The position numbers were made by a program, and so were the translations under genes. Of a stretch of 35,626 nt of DNA, positions 3,430-35,626 are shown piece by piece; position 1 is the first letter of the stretch; the number at the start of each line of letters is the position of its first letter. Source of the stretch: Nodosilinea sp. LEGE 07298 (GTDB lineage Bacteria > Cyanobacteriota > Cyanobacteriia > Phormidesmidales > Phormidesmidaceae); the NCBI RefSeq assembly GCF_015207265.1, contig NZ_JADEXE010000036.1:1-35626 (forward strand). The letters run 5' to 3'. Below the pieces are notes generated by a model. The model did no database searches. It worked only from the letters and a program-made list of their open reading frames with translations, and was not told where the DNA came from.

Positions 3430-3766
3430 AAGGGGGGACCGAAGGGTTGTATCGCCTCTAGGTTTCCCAGGTAACTTCCGTAGGATCCCGGCAATTCCGC
3501 AAGAGCTTATTAAAAGTTGACAATCGGTTCGACCGGCACCGCCTCAGCCTCTGTCGATAGCCCGCAATGGATAGCCAGACACAAAATTGAGCCGGGTGTC
3601 TAAATGCGATCGCGGTCCTAAAAAAAGGTTAAGCCTGGGGGCCTGGGCAGCTTGTCTGGGAGATGAGATCGCTAGACTTTAGAAGCAACAGCATCTCAGA
3701 CGCTACTTAAGTCCTTCATCTTGGGGCATTTTGCTGAGGTGCAATCCGCCCTTAACAGCCATACCT
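3430..3766. other. Divergent intergenic region
   Basis: About 340 bases separate the tubulin-like gene (minus) from the UPF0182 gene (plus) and must hold both promoters. I see one HIP1-like GCGATCGC and an A-tract near 3620. No convincing -35/-10 pair, RNA or small gene could be identified. TTG 3731 is an in-frame upstream start for the following gene. Confidence 0.5.
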
Positions 3767-6547
3767 GTGACCTATTCCCCGACCAAATCTCTCCGCGCCC
3801 GTCGACTGCTGCCCTGGTTGGTGGCCCTTACGCTGCTGCTGGTGTTCTCTGGCGGCCTGGTGCACCTGCTGACCGAGTCGTGGTGGTTTGAGTCGGTGGG
3901 CTACGGGTCAGTTTTTTGGCTCCGCATTAAGTGGCAACTGGCGCTGGGGTTGGGCAGTTTTGTCCTCTATGGCGGAGGGCTGTGGACCAGCTATCAAATT
4001 GCGCTACGACTGACCCGCGATCGCACCTACCGATTTTTGAGCCGCTACAGCGACCCGGCTCAGCGAGAGCAGTTCGCGCGCCTGCTGCACCTGGGCATGG
4101 CGGGGCTAATCTTTGTGCTAGCCCTAGGAGTAGCCCTGCGGTCGGCAACGGCCTGGCAAACGGTGCTGCAATTTCTCAACCCCACCGCCTTTGGTATCGC
4201 CGACCCGATCTTTCAGCGCGATATTGGCTTTTATGTGTTTAAGCTGCCCCTGTGGCAGGGGCTACAGGACAACCTGCTGGGGCTACTGATATGGGCACTG
4301 CTGATTGCCATTACGGTCTACACCCTCAAGGGTGAGGTGCGCCCCGAGCGCGGTTGGAAGTACTTTCTCACGGGCGAGGCCAAAGCCCACCTGTGCCTGC
4401 TGCTGGCGGCGATCGCGGTGGTACTGGCAGCGGGCTTTTGGCTCGATCGCTACTCGCTGCTGTACTCCGACAGCGGGGTCATTTTTGGGGCGGGCTACAC
4501 CGATGTACACGCCCGGCTACAGGCCTACTGGCTGATGGGGTTTGTCACCCTGGCCGTGGCAGCCCTGTTCATGATTGCTCTGACCCGCAGCGGCTTTTCG
4601 CTACCCATTTTTGGCATTGTGATTTACCTGGGCGTGCTGGTGCTGGTGAACGGCCTCTACCCATGGTTTCAGCAAAATTTTGTGGTCGAGCCCAACGAAC
4701 TCACCATCGAGCGCCCCTATATTGAGCACAATATTGCCTTTACCCGGCGGGCCTACAGCCTCGACAGCGTCACCTCAGAACCCTTTCCGGCTGAAGCCAA
4801 CCTCACCCGCGATGTCATTGAGGCCAACACCCCCACCGTAGGCAACATTCGCCTGTGGGATTACGCCCCCCTGCTCAGCACCTACAAGCAGCTGCAAGAA
4901 ATTCGCCTCTACTACAACTTTGAGGATGTCGATATTGATCGCTACACCCTCAACGGCGACTACCGCCAGGTATCCCTCTCGGCCCGTGAACTGCCGGTGG
5001 AGCAGCTGCCGTCCGAAGCCCAAAACTGGATCAACCGCCAGCTCAAATTTACCCACGGCTTTGGAACGGTAATGAGCCCGGTTAACCAGATTACCCCCAA
5101 CGGGTTGCCAGAATTTTTCATTCGCAATGTGCCCCCCGACAGCAACGTCGATCTGCCCCTAGAGCAGCCCCGCATTTACTACGGCGAAAGCACCCGCAAC
5201 TACATCTTTACCGGAGCCAGCACCGACGAGTTTGACTATCCCCAGGGCGACACCAACGCCGCCTATCGCTATACCGGGGCTGGGGGGGTGCCGCTTAACT
5301 CATGGCTGCGGCGACTGATCTACGCCTACGATCTGGGCAATTTTCGGGTTTTAATTTCTAACTACTTCAGCCCCGAAACCCGCATTCACTACCACCGGCT
5401 GATTACCGACCGGGTGCGGCAGGTAGCCCCTTTTCTCACCTTTGACAGCGACCCCTACCCAGCCATCATCGACGGGCGCATCAAATGGATCTTAGACGGC
5501 TACACCAGCAGCGATCGCTACCCCTACTCGGAGCCGCTCAACCGACGCGACGACCTGATTTCACTGGTCGACAGCGCCAACCCGCTGATGCGCAACGGCG
5601 TCAACTACATTCGCGATGCCGTCAAAGTCTTTATCGATGCCTACGATGGCACCCTAGAACTTTACGCCCGCGATCGCGAAGACCCACTACTAGCTACCTA
5701 CGGCCGCATCTTTCCCGAGCTGTTTAAACCGATTGAAGACCTGCCCGCCAGCTACCGCGATCACCTGCGCTACCCCCAGGATATTTTCACGGTGCAGGCC
5801 CAAATGTACCGGGCTTACCACATGGAAAACCCCGAGGTCTTCTACAACCGCGAAGATCTGTGGCGCTTCCCTCAGCATGAGGAAGATGGCGCGGTGGAGG
5901 CGATGGAACCGTACTACATCATCATGAAGCTGCCCCGGCTGAACCAGGAGGAGTTTCTGCAAATTTTGCCCTTTACCCCTGCTAACCGCGACAATATGAT
6001 CGCCTGGATGGCCGGTGGCTCTGACGGCGACAACTATGGCCGCCTGCTGCTCTACGAATTTCCTAAGCAGGAGCTAGTGTTTGGCCCCACCCAAATTGAG
6101 GCTCGCATTAGCCAAACGCCCGAAATCTCTGAGCAGCTTACCCTCTGGAGCCAGCAGGGATCGGGAGTGATTCGCGGTACCCTGCTGGTGGTTCCGATCG
6201 AGCAGTCGCTGCTGTACGTGCAGCCCATTTACCTGCGGGCCGATCAGGGCGAGCTGCCCGAACTGCGGCGGGTAATTGTCGCCTACAACGATCGCGTCGT
6301 GATGCGAGAAACCCTTGAGCAAAGCCTAGATGCTATCTTTGGGGAAGCGAGCACACCCGTACCTACACCTACAACGCCGGGAGCAGTAGCACCACCGCCC
6401 AGCACCACAGCCGACCTCGTTCAGGCCGCTCTTGAGTCATATCAAGCTGGCCAACAGGCGCTTCAGCAGGGTGATTGGCAACGCTATGGAGAGGCCCAGC
6501 AGCAGTTAGAAACTGCGTTGCAACAGCTAAATCAACAAATTCCGTAA
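3767..6547 (+). CDS. UPF0182 family integral membrane protein
   Basis: This is a large membrane protein of the UPF0182 (COG1615) family, whose function is not established. The frame opens at TTG 3731. I prefer GTG 3767, which gives MTYSPTKSLRARRLLPW directly before the first membrane helix (926 residues); neither start has a good ribosome site. Counting from TTG 3731, about seven hydrophobic helices lie at 28-47, 65-88, 119-137, 182-200, 219-237, 264-283 and 291-309. A conserved UPF0182-type stretch follows (PNELTIERPYIEHNIAFTRR, from 321) and then a long soluble, probably extracytoplasmic domain. A Pro/Thr linker precedes a Gln-rich helical tail (ESYQAGQQALQQGDW), commonly seen at the end of this family. 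Length is normal and the frame is intact. It stands alone, divergent from the tubulin-like gene, and is not obviously co-transcribed with the next gene. Confidence 0.9.
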   Translation: MTYSPTKSLRARRLLPWLVALTLLLVFSGGLVHLLTESWWFESVGYGSVFWLRIKWQLALGLGSFVLYGGGLWTSYQIALRLTRDRTYRFLSRYSDPAQREQFARLLHLGMAGLIFVLALGVALRSATAWQTVLQFLNPTAFGIADPIFQRDIGFYVFKLPLWQGLQDNLLGLLIWALLIAITVYTLKGEVRPERGWKYFLTGEAKAHLCLLLAAIAVVLAAGFWLDRYSLLYSDSGVIFGAGYTDVHARLQAYWLMGFVTLAVAALFMIALTRSGFSLPIFGIVIYLGVLVLVNGLYPWFQQNFVVEPNELTIERPYIEHNIAFTRRAYSLDSVTSEPFPAEANLTRDVIEANTPTVGNIRLWDYAPLLSTYKQLQEIRLYYNFEDVDIDRYTLNGDYRQVSLSARELPVEQLPSEAQNWINRQLKFTHGFGTVMSPVNQITPNGLPEFFIRNVPPDSNVDLPLEQPRIYYGESTRNYIFTGASTDEFDYPQGDTNAAYRYTGAGGVPLNSWLRRLIYAYDLGNFRVLISNYFSPETRIHYHRLITDRVRQVAPFLTFDSDPYPAIIDGRIKWILDGYTSSDRYPYSEPLNRRDDLISLVDSANPLMRNGVNYIRDAVKVFIDAYDGTLELYARDREDPLLATYGRIFPELFKPIEDLPASYRDHLRYPQDIFTVQAQMYRAYHMENPEVFYNREDLWRFPQHEEDGAVEAMEPYYIIMKLPRLNQEEFLQILPFTPANRDNMIAWMAGGSDGDNYGRLLLYEFPKQELVFGPTQIEARISQTPEISEQLTLWSQQGSGVIRGTLLVVPIEQSLLYVQPIYLRADQGELPELRRVIVAYNDRVVMRETLEQSLDAIFGEASTPVPTPTTPGAVAPPPSTTADLVQAALESYQAGQQALQQGDWQRYGEAQQQLETALQQLNQQIP

Positions 6548-6677: not shown

Positions 6678-9600
6678 ATGTCTACTACGCCTCCCAATGT
6701 TCTGCAATTGGCCCGTCAGGGTGACCCAGACGCGATCGCAGCCCTGATGAATCGCCATCTAGAGACCCAGGGCATTACTGCCCATGTGGCACAGCAGGAA
6801 AGTACGCTCCAGGTCAACCTAGAGGGTGCTCAAATTCCAAATCAGGCCGATTTAGTTGCCTTTGTTAAAAAAGGCATCACGGGGCTGGATCTAGCCGCTG
6901 TTCATCACCTCACGGTGAGCGGCAAACAGGTTGGCGCTGGCACCAGTGCCTGGAGCGAAGATCTGGTACTGCAAACCACCGTCAACGACGTCGAGTTTGA
7001 TCTCGATACCGCTCCTGGTGACGCGAGCGTGGGTGACGCCCTCGCCAGCGATGACCTAGACCTGGAGTTTGACCTCGACAGCGCAGCGCTAGACACAACC
7101 GACCTTGGCGATCTCGACATGGCCCTGGGCAACGACCTTAATGAGGCCGATTTGGACCTGGATTTAGGCCTTACTAGCAGCGATTTGGGCCTTGAGGCAC
7201 CTACAGACTTCGACTTAAACTTTACCGACAGCGACTTTGGTCTCGATCTCACCGACCCTGGTTCTGAGCCCGAGATTGCAGACAGCTTCAACCTTGACTT
7301 TGGCGACAACGCCGCTGCCGATCTCGATCTTGACCTCAGCGACGGCCTTGCCAATGACCTCATCACCGACAACGGCTTTGACCTCGATCTAGCCATGCCT
7401 GAGGAGCCATCTGCCGACCCCATCGACCTCGATTTTGACTTAGGTCTCGGTGAGGCTACTGTTGAACCAACTACCGATTCTGGTAGCCTAGATTTTGATC
7501 TAGGTCTTAGTGAGGCCGCTGCCGAACCCCCTGTTGATTCTGGTGACCTGGATTTTGATCTAGGTTTCACTGAGGCCGCTACCGAGCAGACTACCAGCTC
7601 TGACGACCTCGATTTTGATTTAGGTCTCCCCGATGGGCCAGCTGATGCCAACGCGCCTACCGATGTAGATTTTGAGTTGAATTTTGGCGATCAGCCTGTT
7701 GAAGCTGCCCCTACCAGCGATCTTGATTTTGATCTGGGTTCCGACGATAACGCTGCGGATGCCGCCGCTGATCTTGATTTGGGCTGGGCTGACGAACCGG
7801 CCCTCGATCGCCCAGCCGGAGAGTTAGACCTAGACTTTGGCCTGGCCGATGAACCAGCAGGCGCTCCCTCCGCCATTGACTTAGATCTCGACTTTGACCT
7901 GCCTGAAACCCCAGCCCCAGCCAGTGCTACCGACGATCTAGAGCTTGGCACCGCTGACTTTGATTTTGGGTTTGATGACACCGAGGCGACTGGTAGCGAG
8001 GCCACCCTAGACATCACCGATGATCTAGAGCTGGACTTTGGCACAGGGTTTGACGCCGAAGCAAACCTGGACCTCGCCGAAGCCGACGCTGACTTTGGCA
8101 TGGAAGAATTAGAGGCGATCGCAGACGTTGACAATCTCGAAACCGACGGCTCAGGCTTCGACCTTAATGCCCCTCCGGCCCCACTAACCGCGCCTGAAGT
8201 CGAGGCTGATCTCGATGATCTGTGGGACGATAGCGACACAAATGCGATCGCGCCTGGGTCAGCCACAACCGACCTGTCTGCTGTTGATGACCTAGCCGCC
8301 TTTGACATCGACTTAACCTCTGAATTCGATCGCCCCGACGAGTGGAGCGATCTGGCGGCCATCCCTGATGATGATGTGGGTACCGAGGCGCTAGAGCTTG
8401 ATACTGGCGATCCAGATCTGGCGGCCATCCCTAATGATGATGTGGGTACCGAGGCGCTAGAGCTTGATACTGGCGATCCAGATGCGATCGCCTTTACCGA
8501 CTTAGGGCTTGAGTCTGAAGACCCGTCAATAGAGGCGATCGGCAATACAGATGACCTGCCTCCCGACCTGATCATTCCCGATGAGCCCGTTTTTGCAGAT
8601 TTAGGGGCAGCCGCCGACCTCGATTTAGCGGCGGGCAATGCAACCGACGATTGGGCTGGTGTCCCAGCCGACCTCTCCTGGGGCACCGAGGCCGATACCG
8701 ACCTGGAGGACACGGCCGACTTCGACCTTGCTGCCTTCGATCTGGCTGAAGACAGCTCTGCGGAAGCCCCAAATACTCCCTTTACCGACGACTTTAATGA
8801 CTTTGACCTGGCGGCAGAAGACGATCTATCCCCCAATTTGCTGAGTGAAGATGCTGCCGCCCCAGAGGAGGTTTTCTCTACCCCAGATTTGAGCACCGAT
8901 TTCGATGCCGACTTGGGCACCGATTTTGATACCGACTGGGCTGAACCTACGGTTGACCCAGACTTTGCAAATTCATCTACTCCATCCTGGGAAGAGTCCG
9001 CTGACGACTTTGACTCTGATTTAGCGCTAGATACCCCTAGCAATATCGAGGCTGACCTTGGGACCAACTTTGACCCAGGTCTAGTCTTCGACCCGCTAAC
9101 TGAAGCCGGTGATGCCACCCCTAATCCCTTTGAAGCCGAGGCATTTTTACCTGAAGGCGACGACCCCTACTCTTTCAACACCCCTGAGTTCGAAGCAGAC
9201 GGCTTAGAGGCCTTTGGCTCAGACTCTACCCCAGGGTTTGAGCCGGAGTTTGTCTCTGAAGGGGAAACGGTTAGCCCAGAGGCCTTTACTCCAGAGTTTG
9301 AGTCAGGGTTTGAGACGGATTTTGCTCCGGAAGCCGATGCCGATCTGCCCTTTTCGACCATGGAACTCGATCAAACCGCTGCGGGCAACTTTGTTCCTAA
9401 TCTAGACCTAGACGACAGCGCTAGCGAGCTTGACGCCTATGACGAAGCCTTTTTCGTAGAGCAGACTGAAGACAACACTGCCGAGGCCGAACTCATTCCC
9501 GTACCCATGGAGTTTGGCCATGATGCTGACGAAGATCTAGCATTTGAATCGGTTGAATTTGAAGGCAATGATTTTGGCAGCTCTGGGTTTGACACACCAG

Positions 9601-10343
9601 GCTTCAACGTCGGAGATGTCAGTGCTGAATCAGATTTTGAAGCCCCAGAGTTTAGCGATCAAGGGTTTGGCAACGAGGCCAGCTTTGGGGACGAAGGTTT
9701 CAGTAATGAAAGCTTCGGGGAGGAAGACTTCGACGCTGACGTATTCAGCGACAGCCACGATGATAGCAACGGCTTCATTCAAGACCGCAACGGTGTCGCC
9801 CTGATGGCCGATGAACCAGATGCCACCGATGACTTTATCCAAGAGTTTGGCTCAGACCCCTCTACCCACGTTGCGCTGACCCCTGACCAGTTTAATGACG
9901 ACGGCAGCGTGCGTCGTCGCTCTGGAAGCTCGGGTCTTCCGATGCGGCTCATTTTAGGCCTGGGCCTAGGGGCCTTAGTGCTGGCTCTGGCGGGCCTACT
10001 GCTCAATGGAGTGCTGGGTCGGCTGCGCAGCCTTGAGGGTGACCCAGTGGCTACCGAGTCTGCGGTTCCTGATCCTGCAAATCTTCCTACAGATCCGGCT
10101 ACCGTGACCGAGGAAGATCTATTTAGGCAGGCAGTTAATGCAGCCCAGACCGCTGCTAACCAGGCTCAAACGGCTAGCACGCCGGCCCAGTGGCAGGAGG
10201 TAGCCGATGCCTGGGCCTTGTCCATCAGCCTAATGCAGCGGGTGCCCGCTTCTGACCCCAACTACGCTACGGCTCAGCAAAAAGCCATCGATTACCAACC
10301 CAACCTCAACTATGCTCAGCAAAATGCTGAGCGCTTGCAGTAG
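6678..10343 (+). CDS. Giant acidic repeat protein with one C-terminal TM helix
   Basis: This 1221-residue protein has three parts. Residues 1-100 (LARQGDPDAIAALMNRHL, then PNQADLVAFVKKGITGLD) match a small domain that recurs at the N-terminus of many cyanobacterial proteins. Residues about 100-1075 are low-complexity and extremely acidic, built from variants of LDFDLGL and later of FxxxGF, with almost no Lys or Cys. A basic patch (VRRRSGSS) precedes a single membrane helix at about 1089-1114. The last 80 residues (FRQAVNAAQTAANQAQTA to NLNYAQQNAER) form a helical domain also known from cyanobacterial membrane proteins. The order suggests an acidic cytoplasmic arm anchored by the helix, though topology is inferred. 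It contains a tandem array of four 60-bp units and a 66-bp tandem duplication. The frame stays open through all repeats. Both end domains are of unknown function, and I cannot assign a role. Confidence 0.85.
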   Translation: MSTTPPNVLQLARQGDPDAIAALMNRHLETQGITAHVAQQESTLQVNLEGAQIPNQADLVAFVKKGITGLDLAAVHHLTVSGKQVGAGTSAWSEDLVLQTTVNDVEFDLDTAPGDASVGDALASDDLDLEFDLDSAALDTTDLGDLDMALGNDLNEADLDLDLGLTSSDLGLEAPTDFDLNFTDSDFGLDLTDPGSEPEIADSFNLDFGDNAAADLDLDLSDGLANDLITDNGFDLDLAMPEEPSADPIDLDFDLGLGEATVEPTTDSGSLDFDLGLSEAAAEPPVDSGDLDFDLGFTEAATEQTTSSDDLDFDLGLPDGPADANAPTDVDFELNFGDQPVEAAPTSDLDFDLGSDDNAADAAADLDLGWADEPALDRPAGELDLDFGLADEPAGAPSAIDLDLDFDLPETPAPASATDDLELGTADFDFGFDDTEATGSEATLDITDDLELDFGTGFDAEANLDLAEADADFGMEELEAIADVDNLETDGSGFDLNAPPAPLTAPEVEADLDDLWDDSDTNAIAPGSATTDLSAVDDLAAFDIDLTSEFDRPDEWSDLAAIPDDDVGTEALELDTGDPDLAAIPNDDVGTEALELDTGDPDAIAFTDLGLESEDPSIEAIGNTDDLPPDLIIPDEPVFADLGAAADLDLAAGNATDDWAGVPADLSWGTEADTDLEDTADFDLAAFDLAEDSSAEAPNTPFTDDFNDFDLAAEDDLSPNLLSEDAAAPEEVFSTPDLSTDFDADLGTDFDTDWAEPTVDPDFANSSTPSWEESADDFDSDLALDTPSNIEADLGTNFDPGLVFDPLTEAGDATPNPFEAEAFLPEGDDPYSFNTPEFEADGLEAFGSDSTPGFEPEFVSEGETVSPEAFTPEFESGFETDFAPEADADLPFSTMELDQTAAGNFVPNLDLDDSASELDAYDEAFFVEQTEDNTAEAELIPVPMEFGHDADEDLAFESVEFEGNDFGSSGFDTPGFNVGDVSAESDFEAPEFSDQGFGNEASFGDEGFSNESFGEEDFDADVFSDSHDDSNGFIQDRNGVALMADEPDATDDFIQEFGSDPSTHVALTPDQFNDDGSVRRRSGSSGLPMRLILGLGLGALVLALAGLLLNGVLGRLRSLEGDPVATESAVPDPANLPTDPATVTEEDLFRQAVNAAQTAANQAQTASTPAQWQEVADAWALSISLMQRVPASDPNYATAQQKAIDYQPNLNYAQQNAERLQ
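7428..7667 (+). repeat. Four tandem 60-bp units inside the acidic protein
   Basis: Units begin at 7428, 7488, 7548 and 7608, each opening with a Leu codon followed by GATTTTGA and encoding about 20 residues that start LDFDLG. The first three units are close (LGLGEATVEPTTDS, LGLSEAAAEPPVDS, LGFTEAATEQTTSS); the fourth diverges after LDFDLGL. The period is a multiple of three, so copy changes keep the frame. Confidence 0.85.
8349..8480 (+). repeat. 66-bp tandem duplication (two copies)
   Basis: Copies at 8349-8414 and 8415-8480 differ at only one base by eye (CCCTGATG against CCCTAATG). They encode DLAAIPDDDVGTEALELDTG plus two residues, then the same 22 residues with Asn for one Asp. Near-identity implies a recent in-frame duplication. 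Confidence 0.95.
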
Positions 10344-10490: not shown

Positions 10491-11786
10491 TTGATTGAAC
10501 GCTATACCCTGCCCGAGATGGGCAACCTCTGGACCGACGACTACAAATTTCAAACCTGGCTTCGGGTCGAAATCGCAGTATGCGAAGCCCAGGCTGAATT
10601 AGGGTACATTCCAAAAGAGGCGGTAGACGAGATCAAGGCTAAGGCTAAGTTTGACCCTAAGCGCATTCTTGAAATTGAAGCCGAGGTGCGCCATGACGTA
10701 ATCGCCTTTCTCACCAACGTCAACGAGTACGTAGGCGATGTGGGGCGCTACATTCACCTGGGTATGACCAGCTCTGACATGCTGGATACAGCGCTGTCAC
10801 TGCAGCTGGTGGACAGCCTCCAAGTGATTATGATTCATGTAGAAAGCTTAATTCAGGCCATTCGCTACCGGGCTCAAGAACACCGCGATACGGTCATGAT
10901 TGGGCGATCGCACGGTATTCACGCCGAGCCGATGACCTTTGGCTTTAAGCTGGCTGGCTGGCTGGCCGAAATGCTGCGTCACCGCGAGCGGTTAACGCAC
11001 CTGCAGGATGCGATCGCGGTCGGCAAAATCTCAGGTGCCGTGGGCACCTACGCCAATATTGACCCCAATATCGAGGCTCTGGCCTGCCAAAACCTGGGTT
11101 TGCGCCCCGACACCGCCTCTACCCAGGTCATCTCCCGCGACATTCACGCTGAGTTTATGAATGCTCTGGCACTGCTAGGTGCCTCCATCGAGCGGTTTGC
11201 GGTAGAAATTCGCAATCTTCAGCGCACCGACGTACTCGAAGTCGAAGAGTTTTTCTCGAAGAAACAAAAGGGGTCATCAGCCATGCCCCACAAGCGCAAC
11301 CCGATTCGCTCTGAGCGCCTGACCGGGATGGCACGTCTGTTGCGAGGCAACGCCATGGCAGCCCTAGAAAATGTTGCACTGTGGCACGAGCGCGATATTT
11401 CCCACAGTTCGGTAGAGCGGGTGGCCTTTCCGGATAGCTGCATTCTGACCCACTTCATGCTGGTCGAAACCACCGAGCTAATCAAAAACCTGCTGGTCTA
11501 CCCCGACAATATGGCCCGCAATATGAATGTCTATGGCGGTGTGGTATTTAGTCAGGGAGTACTGCTGGCCCTAGTCGATAAAGGTCTGGCCCGAGAAGAG
11601 GCCTATGCGATCGTGCAGGCCTGTGCCCACCAGGCCTGGAATACCGATGACGGCAACTTCAGAGGGCTTATTGAGGCCGATGAGCGAGTGACCGCCCATC
11701 TATCGGCCGCAGAAATTGCCCACTGCTTTAGCCCCGAACGCCACCTGCGAAATCTAGACCAGGTCTACCAACGCCTAGGTATTTGA
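10491..11786 (+). CDS. purB: Adenylosuccinate lyase
   Basis: This fumarase/aspartase-superfamily enzyme acts in the cytoplasm. It cleaves SAICAR to AICAR and adenylosuccinate to AMP, releasing fumarate in both cases, in purine biosynthesis. The 431-residue length is normal. The superfamily signature GSSAMPHKRN lies at residues 261-270, the TSSD substrate loop at 93-96 and the conserved SHGIHAEP stretch around 140-147, whose His141 is a catalytic candidate. The start is TTG 10491: translation from it gives MIERYTLPEMGNLW, the usual N-terminus of the family, and no ATG or GTG lies nearby in frame. The weak start and absence of a strong Shine-Dalgarno suggest modest translation. It stands alone; the next gene is about 390 bases away and unrelated. 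Confidence 0.97.
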   Translation: MIERYTLPEMGNLWTDDYKFQTWLRVEIAVCEAQAELGYIPKEAVDEIKAKAKFDPKRILEIEAEVRHDVIAFLTNVNEYVGDVGRYIHLGMTSSDMLDTALSLQLVDSLQVIMIHVESLIQAIRYRAQEHRDTVMIGRSHGIHAEPMTFGFKLAGWLAEMLRHRERLTHLQDAIAVGKISGAVGTYANIDPNIEALACQNLGLRPDTASTQVISRDIHAEFMNALALLGASIERFAVEIRNLQRTDVLEVEEFFSKKQKGSSAMPHKRNPIRSERLTGMARLLRGNAMAALENVALWHERDISHSSVERVAFPDSCILTHFMLVETTELIKNLLVYPDNMARNMNVYGGVVFSQGVLLALVDKGLAREEAYAIVQACAHQAWNTDDGNFRGLIEADERVTAHLSAAEIAHCFSPERHLRNLDQVYQRLGI

Positions 11787-34181: not shown

Positions 34182-35626
34182 TCAAGCTAGGTTGAGGGGG
34201 TCGACATCAATGGTAAGACTCACCGAGGCTGGGCAGTACGGCTTCAGGTCTTGTAAGTTTGGCAGAGGGTGCTCTAGCGGCCCCTTAACCAGCAAATGCC
34301 AACGATACCGACGTGCCACCCGTGGTATGGGGGCGGGTGCCGGGCCTAGCATTTGGTAGGGTAAGTCTTTGAGACGCTGGGCCAGTTGCTGGGCCAGGGT
34401 TTCAGCCGTTTTCTGCACCGCCTCGGGGTCGGTGCTGCTTAGCCGCAGCAGAATCATTTGCCCGGCTGGGGGATACTGCAACATCTGCCGCTGCGCCCAT
34501 TCTGTGGCGATAAACCCTTCGTAGGCGTGCCGGGTAACGGCTTCTATAACCGGGTGGTCGGGGGTATAGGTCTGCAAAAAGACCTGGCCCGGTTGAGTAC
34601 CCCGCCCCGCTCGGCCTGCTACCTGAATCAGCATTTGCAGAGCGCGTTCACTGGCCCAATAGTCATTCATATATAAGAGTCCGTCGGCGGCGATAATGCC
34701 GACCAGGGTAACTTGGGGCAAATCAATGCCTTTGGTCAGCATTTGGGTACCTACCAGCAGGTCGGCCTCGCCTTCGGCAAAGCGGGTTAACAGGGCGCGG
34801 TGAGCCCCTTTGGTCCGCGTGGTGTCGCTGTCAAACCGAATGCAGCTCAGCTCGGGAAAGGTTTCGGCCAAGGCGTTGACCACCCGCTGGGTGCCGCTGC
34901 CAAAGTGCTTTAGGTAGGGCGAACTGCAGGCGGGGCAGTGTTTGGGGTGACCCTGGCTAAAACCGCAGTAGTGGCAGCGCAGTGTCATAGCGCTGTTGGC
35001 CCCAGGCTGGTGGTACGACAGCGATACATCGCAGTGGGGGCACATCATCACGTGGCCACAGCTGCGGCACGACACAAAACTGCTGTGGCCGCGCCGATGG
35101 ATGAACAGCAAGCCCTGGTTGCCCTCCGCTTTCATGGTGGTCAGAGCCTTTTGCAGCGATCGACTGAGAATGCTGCGGTTGCCCTCCTGTAGTTCGTCGC
35201 GCATGTCTACCACATTGACGGTCGGCAGCGGCTGGGCCTGCACCCGTTCGGGCAGCGAGAGGTAGGTCCATGGGAGGATGGGGAGAGTGGATGGGTGGAT
35301 GGGTGGATGGGTGGATGGAGGTGGCGAGTTTTCCTCCATAGGTTGATTTGAGGGGCTTTTCAGGGAATCGGCTGCGGGTGAATCGGTGGATTCTGGGTTG
35401 ATGGTGGGCAGTGCCCACCCTACTGGGTTTTCCCTCTGGCGGTCGCCCAGCCCCTGGCACTGCACCCAGGTATCGAGGGAGGGGGTGGCGGAACCTAGTA
35501 CCAGGGGGCAGTTTTCCAATTCCGCTCGCCAGCGGGCTACGGTACGGGCGTGGTAGCAGGGGGGCACGTCTTGCTTGTAGCTGCTGTCGTGTTCTTCGTC
35601 GAGAATAATCAACCCCAGGGTGGGCA
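34182..35626 (-). CDS. priA: Primosomal protein N' (replication restart helicase), 3' part
   Basis: PriA recognises stalled forks and reloads the replicative helicase. Only the C-terminal ~480 residues are present; the gene runs off the right edge. Visible are helicase motif II (ILDEEH), motif III (LGSATPS), eight zinc-binding cysteines in two clusters (CRSCGHVMMCPHC and CHYCGF...CPAC), LLVGTQMLTKGIDLP, and motif VI (QVAGRAGRG). The C-terminal PriA domain follows. Between WVQCQG and LSLPERV the protein carries an unusual Pro/Ser/His-rich insert of roughly 60 residues, which includes sequence from an interspersed palindrome (VGWALPTI) and an octamer tandem repeat (HPPIHPS). The frame stays open through the insert. 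Confidence 0.95.
   Translation of the reverse strand, partial: PTLGLIILDEEHDSSYKQDVPPCYHARTVARWRAELENCPLVLGSATPSLDTWVQCQGLGDRQRENPVGWALPTINPESTDSPAADSLKSPSNQPMEENSPPPSTHPPIHPSTLPILPWTYLSLPERVQAQPLPTVNVVDMRDELQEGNRSILSRSLQKALTTMKAEGNQGLLFIHRRGHSSFVSCRSCGHVMMCPHCDVSLSYHQPGANSAMTLRCHYCGFSQGHPKHCPACSSPYLKHFGSGTQRVVNALAETFPELSCIRFDSDTTRTKGAHRALLTRFAEGEADLLVGTQMLTKGIDLPQVTLVGIIAADGLLYMNDYWASERALQMLIQVAGRAGRGTQPGQVFLQTYTPDHPVIEAVTRHAYEGFIATEWAQRQMLQYPPAGQMILLRLSSTDPEAVQKTAETLAQQLAQRLKDLPYQMLGPAPAPIPRVARRYRWHLLVKGPLEHPLPNLQDLKPYCPASVSLTIDVDPLNLA
35287..35318. repeat. Octamer tandem repeat (GTGGATGG x4) in priA
   Basis: Four perfect units start at 35287, 35295, 35303 and 35311. The unit length is not a multiple of three, so gain or loss of one unit would shift the priA frame. 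It encodes Pro/His/Ile/Ser-rich sequence on the minus strand. Confidence 0.9.
35402..35423. repeat. Palindromic interspersed repeat, copy 2 (inside priA)
   Basis: Identical over 22 bases to the copy at 29962-29983, with arms GGTGGGCA and TGCCCACC around a central G. On the priA strand it is read in frame as VGWALPT. Confidence 0.85.

Follow-up and report, generated by a model that had tools for sequence, protein, structure and literature searches.

A giant acidic arm between two recurrent cyanobacterial domains: a possible membrane-anchored docking scaffold in Nodosilinea

In a 35,626-nucleotide stretch of the cyanobacterium Nodosilinea sp. LEGE 07298 (contig NZ_JADEXE010000036.1 of assembly GCF_015207265.1; hereafter the window), an open reading frame (ORF) at 6678-10343 on the plus strand, to which all coordinates refer unless stated otherwise, encodes a protein of 1221 amino acids that we call P0001. 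It is built from an alpha/beta N-terminal domain (N-domain) of ~100 residues, an acidic arm of ~985 residues, one transmembrane (TM) helix and a three-helix C-terminal domain (C-domain). Its ends are fixed, while the arm between them changes but is still selected and keeps a few short motifs; together with the acidic and hydrophobic stickers of the arm, this suggests a membrane-anchored scaffold on which client proteins dock, a reading that we favor tentatively and would not yet call probable. A first-pass annotation, made from the DNA alone, had described a giant acidic arm of about 1000 residues between two recurrent end domains, with a membrane helix behind the arm, and we found ORF, length, layout and a single TM helix (by hydropathy) just as it had claimed.

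Composition and disorder of the arm

The arm (residues 101-1085; 6978..9932) consists to 29% of Asp and Glu (198 D, 92 E) and contains six Arg, no Lys and no Cys, resulting in a net charge of -284; its longest stretch free of Lys and Arg extends over 484 residues. Such a charge would suit a polyanionic sponge or buffer for cations, or for basic proteins, on the membrane surface. We consider this improbable: it leaves the conserved hydrophobic motifs, the N-domain and the predicted exoplasmic domain described below unexplained, and the likely cytosolic placement of the arm counts against a calcium store.

The arm is predicted to be unstructured, with FoldIndex being negative in 921 of its 934 windows, in 25 of 25 Nodosilinea-type long arms and in 6 of 6 other long arms, although this is a blunt tool that stays near zero (-0.00) even for the well-modelled C-domain. 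The end of the arm (residues 1060-1089) reaches a per-residue confidence (pLDDT) of only 47-66 in an AlphaFold2 (AF2) model of the C-terminal part. Both observations fit, without proving, an arm that is probably disordered, and Pfam scans of P0001 and of one other long-arm protein (L115; L and G numbers denote our loci and genomes) detected no ordered middle domain, the presence of which would have spoken against a scaffold.

Two repeat types are enriched. The pattern [LVF]D[FL][DE]L is present in 10 copies, whereas 1000 shuffles give an expectation of 0.21 (maximum 3), and F-x(2-4)-GF is present in 7, compared to 1.08 (maximum 4), where the shuffled expectation ignores tandem duplication, which is real in this arm: a 60-bp tandem repeat of 3.4 copies with 73% matches (7425..7628) encodes LDFDLG units, and a 66-bp (22-codon) duplication in two copies with 98% matches (8349..8483) is probably recent. 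Nine of the ten LDFDL-type copies fall within residues 101-400, the first third of the arm (6978..7877). The earlier view that LDFDLG and FxxxGF repeats build the arm is thus borne out in their enrichment and not in their extent, as the LDFDLG repeats fill only about this first third; the remainder is acidic, with much Phe in the second half of this remainder, and carries single-copy motifs. Opposite the arm, on the minus strand, lie antisense ORFs of 248 amino acids (6905-7651) and 475 amino acids (7691-9118), probably a by-product of codon composition.

With Leu/Phe stickers recurring along an acidic and probably disordered chain, the arm could also phase-separate on the membrane, and Phe is indeed flanked by Asp or Glu above the expectation from composition in three Nodosilinea-type arms (observed/expected 0.49/0.29 in P0001, 0.57/0.33 in L050, 0.36/0.20 in L054). 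However, Phe was not enriched beside acids in the long arms tested from outside the genus (L119, 0.17/0.27; L128, 0.26/0.27; L111, 0.25/0.26), and a chain nearly devoid of positive charge should repel itself. We hold such a condensate scaffold to be the least likely of the functions considered here.

Evolution of the arm under constraint

Across 25 distinct full Nodosilinea-type orthologs, window copy included (set A), the arms measure from 410 (L054) to 1374 (L050) residues (median 971), with an Asp plus Glu fraction of 0.20-0.34 and 3-12 Lys plus Arg; Cys is absent from 24 of them and present once in L057. In eight ortholog pairs, whose alignments contain 4 to 269 gap columns, the ratio of the nonsynonymous rate (dN) of the arm to that of the N-domain is 2.3-8 (the N-domain being unchanged in one pair), and its ratio to that of the TM helix plus C-domain is 1.4-8, where both were comparable. 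The ratio of nonsynonymous to synonymous rates (dN/dS) amounts to 0.18-0.24 for the arm in all eight pairs, to 0-0.20 for the N-domain and to 0.03-0.17 for the TM helix plus C-domain; the arm is therefore constrained and still selected as a protein. It evolves faster than the ends, is labile in length and rich in insertions and deletions, and yet is under purifying constraint, so that the annotated contrast between conserved ends and a fast-evolving arm holds for the relative rates but has to be qualified for the arm, which is itself constrained.

A spacer or entropic brush, in which the arm only keeps the N-domain off the membrane or the surface clear, and in which length and charge matter and motifs do not, would accommodate this lability within one genus, the arms of merely 37 residues in relatives, and the growth of repeats by tandem duplication. 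It sits less well with a dN/dS of about 0.2 and with motif islands kept above shuffles, and we regard it as rather unlikely, if less so than the sponge. Aromatic spacing, examined in six arms, bears on the brush in both directions: the coefficient of variation of the gaps indicates a more even spacing than in shuffled sequences, which argues against it, in three arms (L050, 0.60 vs 0.94±0.08; L119, 0.64 vs 0.95±0.10; L128, 0.73 vs 0.95±0.10), and is not clearly below the shuffles in the other three (P0001, 0.79 vs 0.94±0.10; L054, 0.90 vs 0.92±0.16; L111, 0.86 vs 0.94±0.11).

Short motifs retained in the arm

In a blind test, ten-residue windows of the arm were compared with six distant orthologs, a match having to score better than all 50 shuffles. 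At least three of the six orthologs matched 46 of the 981 windows, compared to 0-4 windows for five shuffled queries. Many of the matched windows are LDFDLG repeats, and the shuffled-query control destroys repeats, so that repeat sharing alone can raise the count of 46. Only one window, at DATDDFI just before the TM helix, was matched by all six distant orthologs; it belongs to a juxtamembrane island, ADEPDATDDFIQEFGS (residues 1044-1059; 9807..9854), which is a candidate docking motif. A second island, NFDPGLVFDP (residues 797-806; 9066..9095), exceeded all shuffles in three of the six distant orthologs, and a third motif, NGFIQ, lies at residues 1031-1035 (9768..9782). As patterns, with about one copy per arm, DATDxFI is present in 23, FDPxLV in 21 and NGFxQ in all 25 of the set A orthologs; none of the three was found in six long arms from outside the genus (set B, below). 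These patterns, like those of set B, were chosen after looking at the sequences.

The end domains

The N-domain (residues 1-100; 6678..6977), which lies on the predicted cytosolic side, is modelled by AF2 from 83 sequences as helix-helix-strand-strand-helix-strand-strand, with a mean pLDDT of 76 and core blocks at 78-87 over residues 11-100. In these sequences, N25 is invariant, and A12, Q14, G15, A19, I20, A21 and L23 are nearly so. Foldseek returned no match for the model at E<=0.001. The top VIA-align hit, the alpha-lytic protease prodomain-like 4hlb (Z 9.0, root-mean-square deviation (rmsd) 3.4, 85 aligned), led us to draw no function; KhpB, fatty-acid AMP ligase, RimP, BolA, FliF, PrgK and others followed at Z 6-7.4, all of which we read as a common alpha-beta arrangement, and KH and BolA identities were dropped because no match stood out. 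Two matches from a PDB sequence search with the N-domain alignment, at E 0.77-0.85, were not used.

The TM helix, with its best 19-residue window at residues 1091-1109 (9948..10004; mean hydropathy 2.66), is placed by the AF2 model of the C-terminal part at residues 1095-1116 with a low pLDDT of ~51-59. The C-domain behind it (residues 1143-1221; 10104..10340) is modelled from 41 sequences as three helices (1145-1165, 1169-1187 and 1196-1219) at a pLDDT of ~91-98. Its shape resembles MIT and TPR domains: Foldseek aligned it to the MIT domain of Vps4 (9bl8) with probability 1.00, TM-score (TMt) 0.74 and rmsd 2.2, but at E 0.37, and its MIT matches, with probabilities of up to 1.00, all had E>=0.19. 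A PDB sequence search with the C-terminal part at E<=1 gave no MIT match and, unlike MIT domains, the C-domain is probably exoplasmic; the likeness is without statistical support and may reflect a shared simple fold. The sole PDB sequence match of this part, the photosystem II extrinsic protein 4yuu_q1 (E 0.0025), was not built on because it is a single match to a helical bundle.

Neither end domain matches a named family, and Pfam and NCBIfam scans of P0001 gave nothing above cut-off; the sole Pfam match, Tri-helical (PF24465) on the C-domain, had E 0.15 and scored 13 bits where 27 are required, and NCBIfam had no match at E<=1. Searched separately, as the first-pass annotation had proposed, both ends recur across cyanobacteria, with arms of varying length between them. 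The N-domain profile has 7 matches in the same genome (7.25 Mb in 617 contigs) and the C-domain profile 11, P0001 itself included each time; in the phylum, they match 100 and 115 of 386 genomes, respectively, again counting its own. A search of this genome with P0001 hit 12 places including itself, seven of the other eleven through the C-terminal and four through the N-terminal part.

By Pfam, the partners of the N-domain in this genome are DUF4870 and EcsC, two further scanned proteins having no Pfam match; in relatives, it stands ahead of TPR plus GUN4, NB-ARC, pentapeptide and WD40 regions. The N-domain is comparable to effector-associated domains (EADs; PMC7159879), three of which are likewise predicted to be alpha+beta: it is small, recurs on different proteins within a genome and is joined to differing partners, some of them TPR plus GUN4 or NB-ARC. 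However, no Pfam EAD model, in a library that includes at least EAD5, matched P0001 at E<=1. Among individual fusions, L060:4300-6996 combines two tandem N-domain-like stretches with TPR repeats and GUN4; L149:5989-7626, L129:5959-7356 and L103:7947-9212 are fusions to signal peptidase (S26) and PrsW intramembrane proteases; and the L195 and L196 stretches, 8 kb from each of two genomes of ~3 Mb, contain the N-domain only in fusions to pentapeptide repeats, with two such genes adjacent in L195 (one of three scanned, the rest judged by eye).

Membrane topology

Domain contexts and charge counts suggest a cytosolic N-domain and arm and an exoplasmic C-domain, as far as sequence can tell. With the window copy and one duplicate excluded, 21 C-domain proteins lack an N-domain, and in 20 of them an upstream element could carry the C-domain across the membrane: a TM segment in 14, assigned by hydropathy and regardless of odd or even number, and a lipobox in six, three of these found by pattern and three by eye. 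N-domains, for their part, lie ahead of domains of cytosolic type or of the first TM segment. Lys plus Arg are more numerous before than after the TM helix in 24 of 25 set A proteins (one tie) and in 18 of 21 shorter relatives (three ties; set C, below). The membrane may be either the plasma or the thylakoid membrane.

Relatives across the Cyanobacteria

A pattern search of GTDB genome contigs gave 241 matches, and relatives are encoded at 143 of them; the best 80 of these 143 all carry cyanobacterial titles, and the closest named relatives among them are Nodosilinea and its neighbours, for example N. nodulosa PCC 7104 (L073). Set C comprises 21 proteins that combine an N-domain, one TM helix and a C-domain; they come from 20 loci, counting near-copies such as L063/L117. 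Their arms are short, at 37-345 residues, and mostly acidic (Asp plus Glu 0.16-0.51), with FoldIndex negative in 20 of 21. Set B consists of six long-arm proteins from outside the genus (L111, L115, L118, L119, L128 and L133, with a seventh, contig-cut one, L114, omitted); their arms span 722-1441 residues, with Asp plus Glu at 0.26-0.28 and 11-27 Lys plus Arg. They carry motifs of their own, LxxQLxxLWxEQ-type in five of six (not L133) and SQExLEAQL-type in four of six (not L119 and L133), so that acidity is kept in a second long-arm group despite other motifs, a point in favor of a scaffold. In an N-domain tree of 101 rows, the Nodosilinea clade (100/97) stands apart from the other long-arm group, on a weak backbone with unsettled bootstrap; a topology test does not reject a single clade uniting all long arms (p-AU 0.11; 14 vs 19 rows).

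Outside the genus, N-domain membrane relatives were examined at 27 loci, and at 18 of these the gene lies divergent from, or one small ORF off, one gene cluster, whose scanned member, at L103, is a GH57 1,4-alpha-glucan branching enzyme; the 18 are L111, L114, L115, L118, L119, L128, L133 and 11 set C loci. The flanks of nine Nodosilinea GH57 loci, up to 1.5 kb, contain no N-domain ORF, and a link to glycogen was dropped for this reason.

A docking scaffold and its comparison to HubP/FimV

Among the roles that the first-pass annotation had offered, scaffold, sponge or spacer, a scaffold fits best because short arm motifs survive and because the plan resembles that of HubP/FimV, with the spacer keeping the modest likelihood given above. 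We infer the clients, placement and multivalency of such a scaffold as follows. By binding something in the periplasm or in the thylakoid lumen, the three-helix C-domain would position P0001, whose one TM helix would cross the membrane. The long negative arm would then serve as a multivalent docking strip in the cytosol: its repeated LDFDLG and Phe stickers would bind weakly, its single-copy motifs (the membrane-proximal DATDDFI, FDPxLV and NGFxQ) would bind particular clients, and the N-domain at its far end might act as an adaptor for further partners.

HubP and FimV share with P0001 one TM helix, an exoplasmic domain on one side and a long, poorly conserved acidic arm in the cytosol (the cytosolic side of P0001 being the predicted one). 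The cytoplasmic region of P. putida FimV is 25% Asp/Glu and HubP differs in arm size and repeats between close species (PMC12918733), much as P0001 does among its orthologs; HubP partners bind primarily its acidic cytosolic modules (PMC8789113). The order, however, is reversed, with the likely cytosolic end of P0001 being the N terminus, and its end domains are unnamed. LysM was absent from Pfam and NCBIfam scans at E<=1, the probable exoplasmic part being the three-helix domain instead, and the FimV/TPR domain (TIGR03504) was absent from the NCBIfam scan at E<=1 and from the same genome, although its control set of 14 had no clear positive, only S. elongatus matching, and under cut-off. P0001 is thus not a member of the HubP/FimV family and at most works like one. 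That it is a non-homologous cyanobacterial counterpart of HubP, whose N-domain recruits other N-domain proteins like-with-like (WD40, STAND, GUN4-TPR, pentapeptide, PrsW and signal peptidase proteins, in genomes that have them), whose acidic arm motifs add clients, and whose exoplasmic domain anchors it to a site at a pole, a septum or the thylakoid, is a speculative extension that we deem improbable.

Several observations, beyond the possible inflation of the window count and the post hoc choice of patterns, weigh against a docking scaffold or the topology on which it relies. FDPGLVF was matched by only three of the six distant orthologs in the blind test. An acidic arm is not a constant feature: some arms are just 37-57 residues long, two set C arms are only 16% Asp plus Glu, and the paralog L006 of the same genome, an N-TM-C protein of ~280 amino acids, has a short, basic-looking linker. 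A C-domain was detected in only one of the six set B proteins (L111), and set B shows no positive-inside trend (more Lys plus Arg before the TM helix in one, ties in two, fewer in three). L180, the remaining one of the 21 C-domain proteins, combines WD40 with a C-domain and has no visible signal, its start position not being established, and L173 and L181 carry WD40 together with a C-domain behind an N-terminal TM segment; WD40 therefore marks the compartment poorly. Finally, PMC12918733 regards the C-terminal TPR domain rather than the acidic part as the probable main client interface of HubP; by analogy, the N-domain of P0001, and not its arm, could be the main client site.

If the docking reading is true, HubP/FimV proteins are not the only family to have produced acidic membrane scaffolds whose arms can change, cyanobacteria gain a candidate landmark protein, and two recurrent domains that have no Pfam or NCBIfam name in P0001 gain a role; arms of 37 to 1441 residues, all attached to one type of N-domain, form a natural series for testing how length and composition govern function. 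Among the titles and abstract openings listed by literature searches, none concerned P0001 or its end domains, which is weak evidence, since the protein has no name or accession; on this evidence, the family, with its two unnamed domains and changeable arms, had apparently not been recognised before, the N-arm-TM-C plan being of a known kind. The PCC 7002 protein A2116, labelled FimV, is among the proteins tabulated from proximity labelling in the thylakoid lumen, where no Synechocystis homolog is given for it (PMC7880944); it may be a relative of P0001.

Genomic locus

In the genus Nodosilinea, the P0001 gene sits between the genes for UPF0182 and purB; in the window, these encode a UPF0182 protein (3731-6547) and adenylosuccinate lyase (10491-11786). 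Of 26 genomes of the genus, its own included, 23 have the full gene and one (G005) an N-terminal piece (open frame 226); G014 and G024, at 83-84% completeness, gave no match at ortholog level. In 22 fetched loci, purB adjoins the gene in 21 and UPF0182 in 19: L057 is without UPF0182 because its contig ends there, L039 and L050 have none within the stretch fetched, and L058 has no purB within the 1986 bases remaining on that side. Beyond purB in L056 (11666-13771), an antiporter gene is split into adjacent ORFs of 504 and 193 amino acids, perhaps by a frameshift or assembly error. Elsewhere in the window, positions 35287-35318 hold four perfect copies of an 8-bp tandem repeat, GTGGATGG.

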